Of a DNA stretch of 64,000 nt, positions 2,083 through 6,900 are shown one piece after another. A model generated the notes under the pieces. The model searched no databases. It saw only the letters and a program-made list of their open reading frames with translations, and was not told where the DNA came from. The stretch lies in assembly GCA_005879315.1 (NCBI GenBank), contig VBLC01000065.1:1-64000 (forward strand), read 5' to 3'. Positions within the stretch are counted from its first letter, which is position 1; every line of letters begins with the position of its first letter. This DNA comes from Deltaproteobacteria bacterium. GTDB taxonomy: Bacteria; Myxococcota; Myxococcia; Myxococcales; 40CM-4-68-19. The position numbers and the translations under genes are program-made.

Positions 2083-2153
2083 GGCGGCGCTCTCTACCAC
2101 AAGCTGTCACGCGCGCCGGCTCTCGCGCCTAGAAGATGTGAAAGGAGGGTCAG

Positions 2154-2294
2154 ATGAAGCTCAAGTGGAAGGCGTTGATCGCCGCCCTCGCGCTCGCCGT
2201 CCCGGCTCTGGGCTGGGCAGCGACGAAGGGCCTGCACAGCGATGCGCCCTGCGGGGAAGACTGCCCGTACCCCTGTCCTCTGATGAAGAGGTAG
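2154..2294 (+). CDS. Small secreted Cys-rich peptide (46 aa)
   Basis: A short gene with a near-ideal ribosome site (AAAGGAGG, 5 nt before ATG). It encodes 46 residues: a basic N-terminus (MKLKWK), a hydrophobic stretch ending in ALGWA that reads as a signal peptide, then a short tail with three cysteines in C-x3-C-x3-C spacing (CGEDCPYPC). The mature part would be about 24 residues. The stop lies 7 bp before the GTG of an ECF sigma factor, so the two are very probably co-transcribed. I do not recognise the peptide family. Three regularly spaced Cys suggest metal binding or disulfides, and its place ahead of a sigma factor suggests a role in the signal that factor answers; both points are inference. 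Confidence 0.75.
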   Translation: MKLKWKALIAALALAVPALGWAATKGLHSDAPCGEDCPYPCPLMKR

Positions 2295-2301
2295 CGGGCG
2301 G

Positions 2302-2802
2302 GTGGAGGCCGGCGAGCGCGCGGAGCTGAGGCGCCTGATGCAGCAGCTGAGAGACGGAGACCGGACCGCCTTCGGGCCGGTGTTCGCCATGCTCTGGCCG
2401 CGGCTTCGCGCGTTCGCCGTCCGATTCGCCGGCGCCGACGGCGAGGACGCGGCGCAGACCGCGCTGCTCAAGGTCTTCTCGCGCGCCAGCGAATTCGACG
2501 GCGCGCGCGACGCGTTCGCCTGGGCGCTCGGCATCACCGCCTGGGAGTGCCGCACGCTGCGCAAGCGGCGGCAGCGCCGCAGGGAGCAGTCGGGCGTCCC
2601 CGATCGGCCCGGCAACGATCCCGAGAGGGCGCATCTCCTGCGCGCGTCCGCAGAGGCGGTGATGGGGATGCTCAGCCCCACCGACGCGGAGACGATCCTT
2701 TCGCTCGCCACCGGCCGCCGCGCTGCGCAGGGCGCCACCTATCGCAAGCGGCTGCAGCGCGCCCTCGCGCGCTTCCGGCTTCTCTGGAGGACCGATGAAT
2801 GA
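2302..2802 (+). CDS. ECF-type RNA polymerase sigma factor
   Basis: A 166-aa alternative sigma factor of the ECF class. Residues about 10-95 fit sigma region 2 (LWPRLRAFAVRFAG, then the acidic DGEDAAQTALLKVF helix and the DAFAWALGITAWE segment that normally contacts -10 DNA). The C-terminal part (LSPTDAETIL to YRKRLQRALARFR) fits the region 4 helix-turn-helix, though its middle is shorter than usual. The start is GTG at 2302, 7 bp after the Cys-rich peptide gene. Its end overlaps the next gene, a membrane protein, by 8 nt, which means translational coupling. That partner sits where an anti-sigma factor is usually found. Confidence 0.85.
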   Translation: MEAGERAELRRLMQQLRDGDRTAFGPVFAMLWPRLRAFAVRFAGADGEDAAQTALLKVFSRASEFDGARDAFAWALGITAWECRTLRKRRQRRREQSGVPDRPGNDPERAHLLRASAEAVMGMLSPTDAETILSLATGRRAAQGATYRKRLQRALARFRLLWRTDE

Positions 2803-3325
2803 TCTCGTTCTCGAGCGGCGCGCGCGACGCGCTTACGAGCTGGGCCGGCTTCGCTCGGCGCTGCGGCTCGCGCCTTTCGTGCTGGCGGCAGCGGCGGTGG
2901 CGGTGGCTTGCGGACGGCCGGCGGGACTGAGTTGCGCGCTCGGCGCGATGCTCCTGCCTCTGACGGTTGCGCTCGCTTTCCGCGGCGGCGGCGCCGGCCG
3001 CGGAGTCGTGCCCGGCCTTCTCGCCGGCACCGTTGCCCTGGCGATGCCGCTTCTCGTGCAGATCGTCGGCCATGCCTGCATCGGTCCTGCCTGCATGGCG
3101 CTCTGCATGCCCTCCTGCGTCGTCGGCGGCGCTGCAGGGGGCGCGTTCATCGCGCTGCGCGCTCGCTTCGAGGAGCGGCCGGCGCCCTTCGCGCTCGCTG
3201 CGCTCGCTGTCGCGGGGCTGATGGGCGCGCTCGGCTGCACTCTGGCCGGTGCGGCGGGAGTTGTGGGAATGCTCGCCGGAGCCGTGGTGGCTGGCGCGCC
3301 GGTCCTCATCTCGGTGCGCCGCTGA
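2795..3325 (+). CDS. Cys-rich multi-pass membrane protein, possible sigma partner
   Basis: A 176-aa protein with a basic N-terminal 25 residues (LERRARRAYELGRLR) followed by about five hydrophobic segments. Cysteines are unusually frequent, especially in CIGPACMALCMPSC (roughly residues 95-109, spacing C-x4-C-x3-C-x3-C), between or inside membrane segments. It overlaps the ECF sigma gene by 8 nt, so the two are translated together. By position it is a candidate membrane anti-sigma factor, with the basic N-terminus as the cytoplasmic sigma-binding part, but no ZAS zinc motif or known anti-sigma domain is visible. No family was recognised. Clustered Cys here and in the small peptide upstream hint at thiol or metal sensing. 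Confidence 0.8.
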   Translation: MNDLVLERRARRAYELGRLRSALRLAPFVLAAAAVAVACGRPAGLSCALGAMLLPLTVALAFRGGGAGRGVVPGLLAGTVALAMPLLVQIVGHACIGPACMALCMPSCVVGGAAGGAFIALRARFEERPAPFALAALAVAGLMGALGCTLAGAAGVVGMLAGAVVAGAPVLISVRR

Positions 3326-3330
3326 GGGCG

Positions 3331-3837
3331 TTACTTGAGCAGCTTCACCAGCCTCAAGAACGCGCCTGGGTGCATTCGCGAGCGCACCTTCTTCAGCCCG
3401 CGCCCCTCGGCGAGCCGCTCGATGCCTTCGTGAGCGGACAAGGTCCCGGGCCCTGCGATGAGGAGGGCCAGCGCGATGCCCATCAACGCCAGGTTGTACT
3501 CGAAGCCGCCCTTGGTGATGTCGTAGCCCTTGGTGGCATGCACCTTCCAGATGGCCACCGCCTGCGTTACCAGAACGGCGAGCGCGGCAGGCCGCGTCCA
3601 GAGGCCGAGCACCGCGCTGAAGCCGGCGAACGCTTCGGCCACCCCTGTGGCGACCGCGAAGTGCTTGCCGGGCCGGATGCCGACCTGGTTGAAGAACTTC
3701 CCCGTCTGCTGCGGGCCTTCGCCCTTCAGCTTGCCTAGCCCGTGATAGATCATGCTAGCGCCCAGCGCCGCGCGCACCGGCAGTACTGCCGCTTCCTTGC
3801 GCAGTCGCGTGTCGTTCCATTGCAGAGAGAGGGCCAT
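3331..3837 (-). CDS. DoxX-family membrane protein
   Basis: A 168-aa protein with four hydrophobic segments in the DoxX/TQO-small-subunit pattern: an N-terminal LPVRAALGASMIYHGLGKL helix, the VATGVAEAFAGFSAVLGL helix, AALAVLVTQAVAIWKVH, and NLALMGIALALLIAGPG near the end. DoxX proteins are inner-membrane proteins often tied to redox or oxidative-stress functions. ATG at 3837 is chosen because AGGAGGAAAT lies just before it and the protein starts like its relatives; a longer frame upstream reads like non-coding sequence. It ends 5 bp from the convergent membrane protein gene. No operon partner is evident. Confidence 0.88.
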   Translation of the reverse strand: MALSLQWNDTRLRKEAAVLPVRAALGASMIYHGLGKLKGEGPQQTGKFFNQVGIRPGKHFAVATGVAEAFAGFSAVLGLWTRPAALAVLVTQAVAIWKVHATKGYDITKGGFEYNLALMGIALALLIAGPGTLSAHEGIERLAEGRGLKKVRSRMHPGAFLRLVKLLK

Positions 3838-3911
3838 GGCATTTCCTCCTAGCCCTGTACGCTCGCCACGACACGCTCGCTTTTCAACGAGCGAGCGCCC
3901 GCCGCCTGATT

Positions 3912-6900
3912 CTAGAAGTAGGCGTAGTGCAGCGAGATGTTCGGCACCCAGGTCGGCAGGCCGTCGGAGGTGGGGATGAGCCCGCCGATGTCGATGTTCC
4001 GCGCGAACTGCACGCGCAGCTCGAAAGGACCGAGGCCGAGGTTCACGCCCAGCACGTAGTCGGCAGTGCGGTTCTGCCAAGCCTCGGTCAACGTGGCTCG
4101 CAGCTTCGTGTATCCGGGATTGTTGAGCTGCGCGCGGCTGCTGTCGACCACGCCGCCGAAGTCGATGCCGACGACGCCGGTGATGCCGCTGAAGAGCGCA
4201 AAGCGGATGAGCACGTCGAGTGGGAACTGCAGCTCGGCCTGCGCGATGTAGTAGCCGTCGCCGAGGAGGCGCGCGTCGCCCCACTGGAAGCCGCGCAGGT
4301 TGTCGAAGCTGGAAAGATAGAAACGGCGGCCGAAGCGGCTCCCCTGCGCCAGGCCGGCGGCGACGCGGGCGTTGATCTTGCTGCGGCCCACCAGGCGGAG
4401 CGTCTGGATGGCGTCGGTCTGCAGGTAGCCGAAGATGCCGTCGGTGCCGCGCGTGGGAAGATCTCCTGCGCCGAATTCGATGAGGAAGGAGGTGCCGCCG
4501 ATGGCGCCGCCCGGGCCGTAGCGGGTGGTGTCCCAGCCGTAGGCGATGCTGGCCGTGGTCTCGGCATCGAATCCCTTGATCTCGTTCTGCTCACTCTGGC
4601 CGAGGTTGGCGCAGGAGAAGTCGCGCGCGATGGCGAAGCAATCGCTGAGGAACGATCGATTCACCCCCATCAACCGCGCGGCCGCATCGATGCGGCTGAA
4701 GGTGGAGATGGGATAGGAAAGCAGTCCCTCGCCGCCGAATTGCCTTTGCAGGTAGAAAACCTCGCAGGCATTGCCTTGGGTCCCGTTGGTCGGGGGCAAG
4801 AAGCATTTATATGCGCTGGGGAACCGGGTATCGCGGCCCTGCTGGAAGGTATGGAACAGGCCCAAGCCCCAGATCAATCGCTTCGATTTATCGACGTAGA
4901 AAGCGAGCGCGTCGGTGAGATCGAAAGAGCCATAGATGGCCAGATTCACCAGCGCCGTCCGATCGCGGAGGATGTCGGCGAAGATCACCCCGCCCTGGCC
5001 GACGGGCGCAAAGCCCACTCCTGCGCCACCGATTGCGGCGCCCCCGCCCTCGATGCGCCAGTTCTTGCTCAGATCGAATGGATCATAGGTCGGCGATTTG
5101 AAAGGGATGGGCTCGTCGGGAAAGGTAACGGGCTTGTCGATGGAAGCGAGATAGCTGGGAGGAATCGCGTCCTGCTCGTCGGCGCTGAGCAGGTCGGGGC
5201 TCGAGACTTCGAAGAGCCGGAACCGTGCGCCATAGAAAGCGACGCCATAGAAACCCTGCGGCGCAAGCCCCGGATGGGAGAGCGCCGTGGCAAAATCGGT
5301 GATGCGCTTGATGCGGCCATTCTGCAGGAACCAGAGATCGTATTTGCCTCCGGCGTCGCTGGAGAAGACGACCGCCTCGCCGGGCAGTGCCAGAGGATAG
5401 CGCTGGTCGACGGGCGCGTCGGTGAGCCGCACGCGGGTGCCATCGACAGGATTGATGCGGAAGAGGTTGTATTTTCCGCTCTCAGTGGCGTCGCTGGCGT
5501 AGACGATGCCGTCCTCGCCCCAGGAGAGATCGCGCTCGCTGTAGAGGTCCTCGGTGAGCCGGCGGACGTGCGCGTCCTGGGCGTAGATGTCGACGGTATA
5601 GATGTCGATCTTGCCGTCGCGATCGAGGCCATAGAAAGCGAGCTGCTTGCCGTCAGGGCTGAAAGTGGGATCGCCGGCCTCGATGACCCCGTCGCGGATG
5701 ACGTTGATCACCTTGGTCTCGCTCAGCTGCAGGTCGATGCGCGGGCGAGGCGAGTTTTCCGGGTGCGTCTCCTGCCGGCGCAGCGCACGGAAATGGAGCA
5801 CGTCGGAATCGCCCGATTGCGCGAACCAGGCAATGCCCGAATCGCAGACCGCCATCACCGAGCGCAGCACCGGGTGCAGGCTCTCGGTGCCGGGATGCTG
5901 GTCGATGGCGATCTGCTGAGATGACGAGGGATCGCGCCGGTCGAGCAAGACCAGCTTCGCGCGCGCGGTCTCCCGCTCCACGCCTCGATAGAAGAGCAGA
6001 TTGCCGTCGCTCGAGCTGATGAAGGCGTCGAGCTCGTCGGGGAGCTTCAGCTCGGTGACGTCGGGCAGGTCCTGCCGCGCGTCGAGGTAGGTGCGCATCA
6101 CCCGCTTGCGCGCCCAGGTCTGCCAGCGCGCGTTCATCTGCTGCGGCTGCTCGCCGGCGACCCGGCCGAGAAGCGCCATGAAACCTTCGCGCGCCTCCCC
6201 GCGCCGCGCCTGGCCGGCGAGGCGCGGGCTCTGGTCGAGCAATCCCTGGATCACCCGCTCGCCATAGGTCTCGGCGAGGAACACCAGCTTGGCCTGGCCA
6301 TACTTGTAAGTATAGAGATAGGCATAAGGCCTATCCTCTTCCAGAGTGGGAAAGTCATATCCGATCTCGCCGTTCGGATTGAGCACGATGTCGCGCAGGA
6401 ACATCTCGGTCTCGCTGTCCATCTGCTGGTTGTGCGCGTAGTACTCGGCGAGCCCTTCGGTGAACCAGAGCGGGAAGGCGTTGATCGGGCTCTCCAGCCC
6501 CGCGCTGGCGGAGCGCTCGGCCACTTTCTGGATGTGGAACTGGTGGGTCATCTCGTGCGTCGAGACCATGCGGAACATCTCGCGCTCGCCCGCGTAGGGC
6601 AGCGACATCTTCAAGTCCTGCGGGCTGGTCACGCCGAGCACGCCTTCCTGCACTTCGAAGACGTTGGTTTCGAGGAATTCCCGATAGGTATTGTAAAGGA
6701 TGTAAGGGACCTTGAAGGAAGGCCTGTACTGGAATCGGTCGCTCAAGTACCGCCAGCTCTCGCGCACCAGCCCCGCGGCGATGCGCGCCACCGGATATTC
6801 GCGGTCGTAGAAATAAAAGCGCACGCCGGCCGAGCCGTCGTCGTCGAGATAGTCGAAGTCGCGCCAGTGGTAATCGAAGTAGCGCACCAGGTTCTTGCCC

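Follow-up and report, generated by a model that had tools for sequence, protein, structure and literature searches.

The three-gene unit

Within the window (the whole stretch of 64,000 nucleotides of DNA that was analysed), an ECF-type promoter and a ribosome-binding site precede three genes for an exported peptide, an ECF sigma factor and a cysteine-rich membrane protein (Table 1). When checked on the sequence and the open reading frames, all three genes lie where the earlier note on this DNA had placed them. The sigma gene starts (GTG, 2302) 7 bp past the stop of the peptide gene, and the membrane-protein gene overlaps the sigma gene by 8 bp, just as had been described. The same triplet was sought in other genomes and found in 10/10 sigma-carrying members of the window's family, and the three genes, which had been proposed to form one unit, are conserved as a transcription unit among relatives. 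The three-gene observation is confirmed as genuine and lies far above chance. Divergent to it, a gene on the minus strand (25-2100) presumably encodes an M13-type zinc peptidase, with a HELTHGFDD motif.

Table 1. Features of the three-gene unit, in positions of the window
Feature	Position	Strand	Basis and reading
Promoter, ECF-type, TGTCAC-N16-GCCTA	2105..2131	+	Sole strict match in its own genome; presumed autoregulated
Ribosome-binding site of the peptide gene, AGGAGG	2143..2148	+	Sequence; similar purine-rich sites in 10 orthologues
Exported Cys-rich peptide, 46 aa, C-x3-C-x3-C	2154..2294	+	ORF, orthologues, purifying selection; proposed metal-binding output
ECF sigma factor, GTG start	2302..2802	+	Region 2 recognisable, region 4 divergent
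Cys-rich membrane protein, six segments, proposed anti-sigma	2795..3325	+	Topology, conservation and pairing; no Pfam family

The peptide proved to be as first described, 46 aa long and exported, with an ATG at 2154, a stop at 2294, a Sec-type signal and the triad C33-x3-C37-x3-C41. Its gene is coding: it has the AGGAGG-like ribosome site, GC3 ranges from 0.78 to 0.92 in 10 orthologues, and pN/pS of 0.13-0.58 in 10/10 pairs (five orthologues) indicates purifying selection. The peptide has no match in Pfam or NCBIfam, including the DUF2282/bufferin signature.

The sigma factor has 166 aa and a single cysteine, and it agrees with an ECF sigma in carrying regions 2 and 4 only at a length of about 160-200 aa. 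It matched many NCBIfam ECF models (best E 3.7e-8), and its Pfam Sigma70_r2 score (20.8 bits, E 3.4e-4) falls just under the cut-off of 24 bits; the divergent region 4 was recognised by eye only. The C-terminal Cys-rich domain of CorE-type sigma factors is absent. Strong orthologues (E about 1e-27 or better) were found in 12 of 60 relatives, its own genome counted, and a relative of the membrane protein follows the sigma gene in all 12; the remaining 35 matching genomes of that search held weak paralogues only. Carriage of the sigma gene on plasmids was also searched for, with no match.

The membrane protein and its pairing with the sigma factor

Relatives of the membrane protein, searched with a profile built from 12 of its members, occur in 43 of the 145 genomes of the order and 49 of the 195 of the phylum. 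Outside the window's family, most of them sit in one family of large, Myxococcaceae-like genomes (f4). A sigma gene adjoins the membrane-protein gene in 44/45 loci of the order and in 7/7 further loci of the phylum, and the two genes mostly overlap. The sole unpaired locus of the order (L148) holds a further copy of the membrane protein, close to the start of its contig. Within the window's family, the pair is present in 10/12 genomes; G002 (61% complete) and G007 (98% complete) lack both the sigma orthologue and the membrane protein. The two genes are inseparable. The distance matrices of 48 sigma/membrane-protein pairs correlate at r=0.93, a value reached by 0/2000 permutations, which co-inheritance alone would equally give.

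The earlier note had counted five helices in the membrane protein; family hydropathy gives six hydrophobic segments instead, near residues 26-37, 49-57, 76-89, 106-117, 137-147 and 149-166. An AlphaFold model of two rows also has six helices, with low confidence (pLDDT 55). The hydropathy of the family places the basic N-terminus, with its YE..R motif, and the C-terminus inside, so that H93, C95, C100, C104, C108 and C148 would face the periplasm. The cluster C95-x4-C100-x3-C104-x3-C108 is present as claimed and is largely kept in 31 nonredundant members (C95 in 27, and C100, C104 and C108 in 28 each). Y14, E15 and C148 are found in 31/31, and they are again the invariant columns of a 26-member alignment; an arginine in the short basic cytoplasmic N-terminus is near-invariant.

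The protein of the window has no match in Pfam or NCBIfam, its comparison with the transporter families in Pfam gave none, and no homologue was found among solved structures. Known anti-sigma domains had been said to be missing, and indeed 0/26 family members have a convincing Pfam match. Nevertheless, the protein does occupy the position expected of an anti-sigma, paired with a sigma in 51/52 loci. From this pairing and gene order we suggest that it is a putative anti-sigma that probably holds the sigma factor inactive.

The promoter and its targets

The promoter GTCAC-N15/16-GCCTA stands at most 450 nt upstream of the sigma gene in 40 of 43 testable loci, compared with 0.64 expected from the background of the same loci. 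Testable loci had a sigma gene and enough sequence, which left out L147, at a contig edge, and L148, which has no sigma. The promoter is absent upstream of sigma in L142, L155 and L157, and in L190, L191, L192 and L195 its position is ahead of the Cys-protein gene. Seven of the 12 genomes of the window's family have the strict form, TGTCAC-N15/16-GCCTA, exactly once, always before this operon, and the other five have none. Its count in the 12 genomes is 7, against 9 for a reversed control pattern; since the control is no rarer, the evidence for the promoter lies in its position and not in its number.

The window's own genome has a single strict promoter, ahead of the peptide gene. A larger regulon in that genome was considered for a second, relaxed site (G000:C92:136639) and rejected, as the site was read as coding by eye; it recurs in three relatives with synonymous-looking changes.

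The same loci contain 22 further promoter sites on the gene strand and 2 on the other strand over a similar length. Of the 18 loci examined for efflux-linked sites (L050, L126-L142), 14, in Myxococcaceae-like genomes, have a promoter site before an OEP/TolC gene or before a second membrane-protein copy heading one (L050, L126-L133, L135, L136, L139, L140, L142); in L131 and L132, the called gene begins at or before the site. Moreover, a related pattern, GTCACGCT-N12/13-GCCTA, was found in 22/33 genomes with the system and 1/7 without it (40 genomes searched). Pfam matches of the neighbour genes comprise OEP, ACR_tran, CusB with HMBD, cupredoxin, HMBD/YHS P-type ATPases and multicopper oxidase. 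Matches of the L140 P-type ATPase seed at +173 to +245 were discarded, because a false N-terminal extension of the seed covers the membrane-protein gene.

Second copies of the membrane protein without a sigma of their own lie near TolC/CusB efflux genes in L137, L139, L141, L142 and L148 (contig start), and those of L139 and L142 have their own promoter copy. Between the pair and the TolC/RND genes, L126 has a gene (4732-5163) for a 143-aa Cys-containing lipoprotein-like product, with homologues in L050 and L127-L133; it looks TRASH/YHS-like by eye and has no Pfam match.

Other loci have a different neighbourhood. A PD40 beta-propeller protein (Pfam on the L149 member) follows the sigma/membrane-protein pair in ten loci with no metal gene nearby (L143, L144, L146, L149-L154, L156), and several more have neither a PD40 nor a metal gene. 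In the window's family the operon comes without an efflux gene, so the link to metal rests there on homology.

The role of the peptide

The peptide is encoded just upstream of the pair in 10/10 genomes of the window's family that have the pair. Outside the family, small exported Cys-rich peptides precede sigma in L155, L191, L192, L193 and L195, which brings the total to 15/52 loci. About 36 of the 52 have sigma and membrane protein with no convincing peptide, as judged outside the 15 by a simple filter and by reading. Single loci carry something else nearby. In L190, an exported 186-aa Cys-rich protein full of C-x-C motifs (5701-6258, minus strand), metallothionein-like and with no Pfam match, replaces the peptide. 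According to Pfam, a multicopper oxidase lies upstream of the pair in L194, and a divergent HMBD/YHS P-type ATPase in L189.

Because most relatives keep the pair with no convincing peptide, many of them having efflux genes in its stead, and because single loci have a multicopper oxidase or a long Cys-rich protein that is exported, the peptide is best read as the output of the switch, a small exported metal binder that probably soaks up metal, rather than as a carrier of the signal. The earlier note had proposed a thiol- or metal-dependent signal carried by the peptide. The signal itself is well supported by the conserved periplasmic cysteines and by the promoter shared with heavy-metal efflux genes of relatives; its carriage by the peptide does not fit the relatives that seem to do without one.

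Alternative explanations

That carrier role can be put in a more specific form, in which the exported peptide, metal-loaded or oxidised, binds to cysteine loops on the membrane protein and so brings about the release of sigma, loosely as CnrX acts on CnrY. The constant presence of the peptide gene in the window's family, its recurrence in five loci elsewhere and the periplasm-facing cysteines of both proteins would suit such a docking. However, the switch seems to work without the peptide in the many loci with no convincing one, the sequence and Cys spacing of the peptide vary widely whereas the cysteines of the membrane protein hardly vary, and L190 has the 186-aa protein instead; we regard a docking peptide as improbable. 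The membrane protein could also transport or otherwise handle metal and be co-regulated with a sigma factor that is under some other control. Its six hydrophobic segments with clustered cysteines are compatible with transport, as are the second copies that, with no second sigma, adjoin CusB/TolC-type genes in L137, L139, L141 and L142. A transporter explains poorly why the gene is paired with sigma in all loci except one and overlaps it in most, and why the invariant Y-E and the near-invariant R are kept even in those second copies whose DNA was inspected; together with the missing transporter-family match, this makes it an unlikely account.

It could further be argued that the triplet has been orphaned from a known bufferin system and that its peptide is a bufferin-like RiPP, which the MNIO of the genome would modify in trans ahead of export. 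An MNIO (PF05114) is indeed found in 10/12 genomes of the family, and the window's own genome has its copy in a bufferin-type operon, L124:5296-7692 (G000:C8:14295-16691), with an 89-aa Cys-rich exported protein, MNIO, DUF2063 and DoxX, behind which lies a further sigma-like gene whose product has a Cys-containing tail. In addition, SigF controls bufferin-type operons, according to the available parts of PMC3511200 and PMC12452194. However, G001 (96% complete) and G008 (87% complete) have the peptide and no MNIO match, the MNIO shares the contig of the triplet in G006 only, 6.5 kb away, and the peptide has no Pfam match; modification by the MNIO thus seems very doubtful. Since the window's genome has its bufferin-type operon elsewhere and two peptide-bearing genomes have no MNIO match, we see the peptide as a separate and probably unmodified metal binder. 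A DoxX gene (PF07681) lies convergent with the triplet (3331-3840, minus strand) and is also adjacent to it in five other loci of the family. DoxX is a usual member of bufferin clusters, and the one in the window is on the opposite strand to the triplet.

Proposed mechanism

The operon, the pairing, the promoter, the conserved residues and the efflux genes of relatives behind the same promoter can be read directly from the sequences. Based on the shared promoter at heavy-metal efflux genes, the conserved cysteines and the pairing, we read the pair as a metal-responsive switch, and we consider it fairly likely that the unit as a whole works as a metal-responsive ECF sigma/anti-sigma switch that regulates its own operon and includes a sequestration output. 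The signal metal is probably copper or silver.

At rest, the six-segment membrane protein would use its cytoplasmic N-terminal helix, A-R-R-x-Y-E-x-x-R, to tether sigma to the membrane. A soft metal in the periplasm, most likely Cu(I) or Ag(I), would bind the H-x-C-x4-C-x3-C-x3-C cluster, predicted to lie between segments 3 and 4, and C148, between segments 5 and 6. This binding could shift the helices and release sigma, and the freed sigma would drive the GTCAC-N15/16-GCCTA promoters. In the window the effector would be the 46-aa peptide, since its own operon is the only credible target in that genome; once secreted, it would bind metal in the envelope and lower the signal. In the Myxococcaceae-like relatives, the same switch would drive TolC/RND (Cus-type) efflux genes instead. 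Sigma binding, the identity of the metal, the mechanism of release and the function of the peptide are what we infer from these patterns.

A broader view is more tentative, and we would rate it as possible, short of likely: the unit may represent an undescribed class of anti-sigmas, spread through the phylum, that sense metal directly by means of the Cys cluster in the membrane. In its minimal form such a switch would run a closed loop, and its only other product would be a mini-metallothionein, exported in unmodified form, that would compete for metal with the sensor. If true, the peptide would be both detoxifier and feedback element. Elsewhere the switch would have been refitted with Cus efflux, or would have as its neighbour an ATPase of the copper type, a multicopper oxidase or a long protein rich in cysteines.

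Comparison with known systems

In Cupriavidus metallidurans, CnrYXH regulates RND efflux; CnrY and CnrX are single-span proteins, and the system has a separate periplasmic sensor. To our knowledge, it has no Cys cluster in the membrane. The likeness to the window is that an ECF sigma and a membrane anti-sigma (here proposed) serve metal resistance, and the difference is that the available part of the source mentions no peptide output (PMC4598750). Within myxobacteria, CorE and CorE2 are metal-dependent ECF sigma factors, as the sigma of the window may be (PMC8999054, PMC3107203, as far as available). CorE of Myxococcus xanthus senses metal through its own C-terminal Cys-rich domain, as described in the part of PMC8999054 at hand; by contrast, the 166-aa sigma of the window carries no such domain and is partnered by a membrane protein.

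Among known systems, SigF-NrsF with bufferins comes closest, as a functional analogue with a different anti-sigma family. In Caulobacter crescentus, the accessible part of PMC3511200 reports that NrsF, a six-segment protein whose C131 and C181 are periplasmic, retains SigF at the membrane, that metal stress or Cys replacement frees SigF, and that SigF targets include DUF2282, DUF692, DUF2063 and DoxX proteins. According to the available part of PMC12452194, Buf1-type bufferin clusters include genes for sigma and NrsF, and the exported peptides that they make chelate copper. As in these descriptions, the window has an ECF sigma and, after it, a membrane-bound negative regulator (here proposed) of six segments with key periplasmic cysteines, small exported Cys-containing proteins as targets, autoregulation and, as we read it, a heavy-metal signal. 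The plan of NrsF (six segments, conserved periplasmic cysteines, gene after sigma) is found in the window as a likeness of plan only. Homology was rejected and the analogy kept: hhalign gave a probability of 0.1% against 12 myxobacterial NrsF proteins, the NrsF profile PF06532 matches in 0/12 genomes of the family, and the membrane protein has more cysteines. Moreover, unlike in SigF-NrsF and bufferin systems as the sources at hand describe them, the peptide lies in the sigma operon itself and the promoter differs; unlike in bufferin clusters, the triplet has no adjacent MNIO or DUF2063, the one MNIO of the genome being on contig C8.

The earlier note knew of no described system with this layout. 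This stands for the triplet, as neither it nor the membrane-protein family was found in the literature searched (the main ECF reclassification may name the group), and needs qualifying for the function, given the SigF-NrsF-bufferin clusters. The unit would belong with the metal-responsive ECF sigma/anti-sigma systems, its anti-sigma family appearing undescribed in the literature searched. If our reading is true, very small exported Cys-rich peptides, which annotation readily overlooks, would also gain a function and a tie to the copper handling of myxobacteria, where the known copper sigma is the self-sensing CorE. Besides NrsF and CnrYX, the membrane protein would then offer a third plan for reading periplasmic metal and releasing sigma, with a defined promoter and defined candidate ligands.
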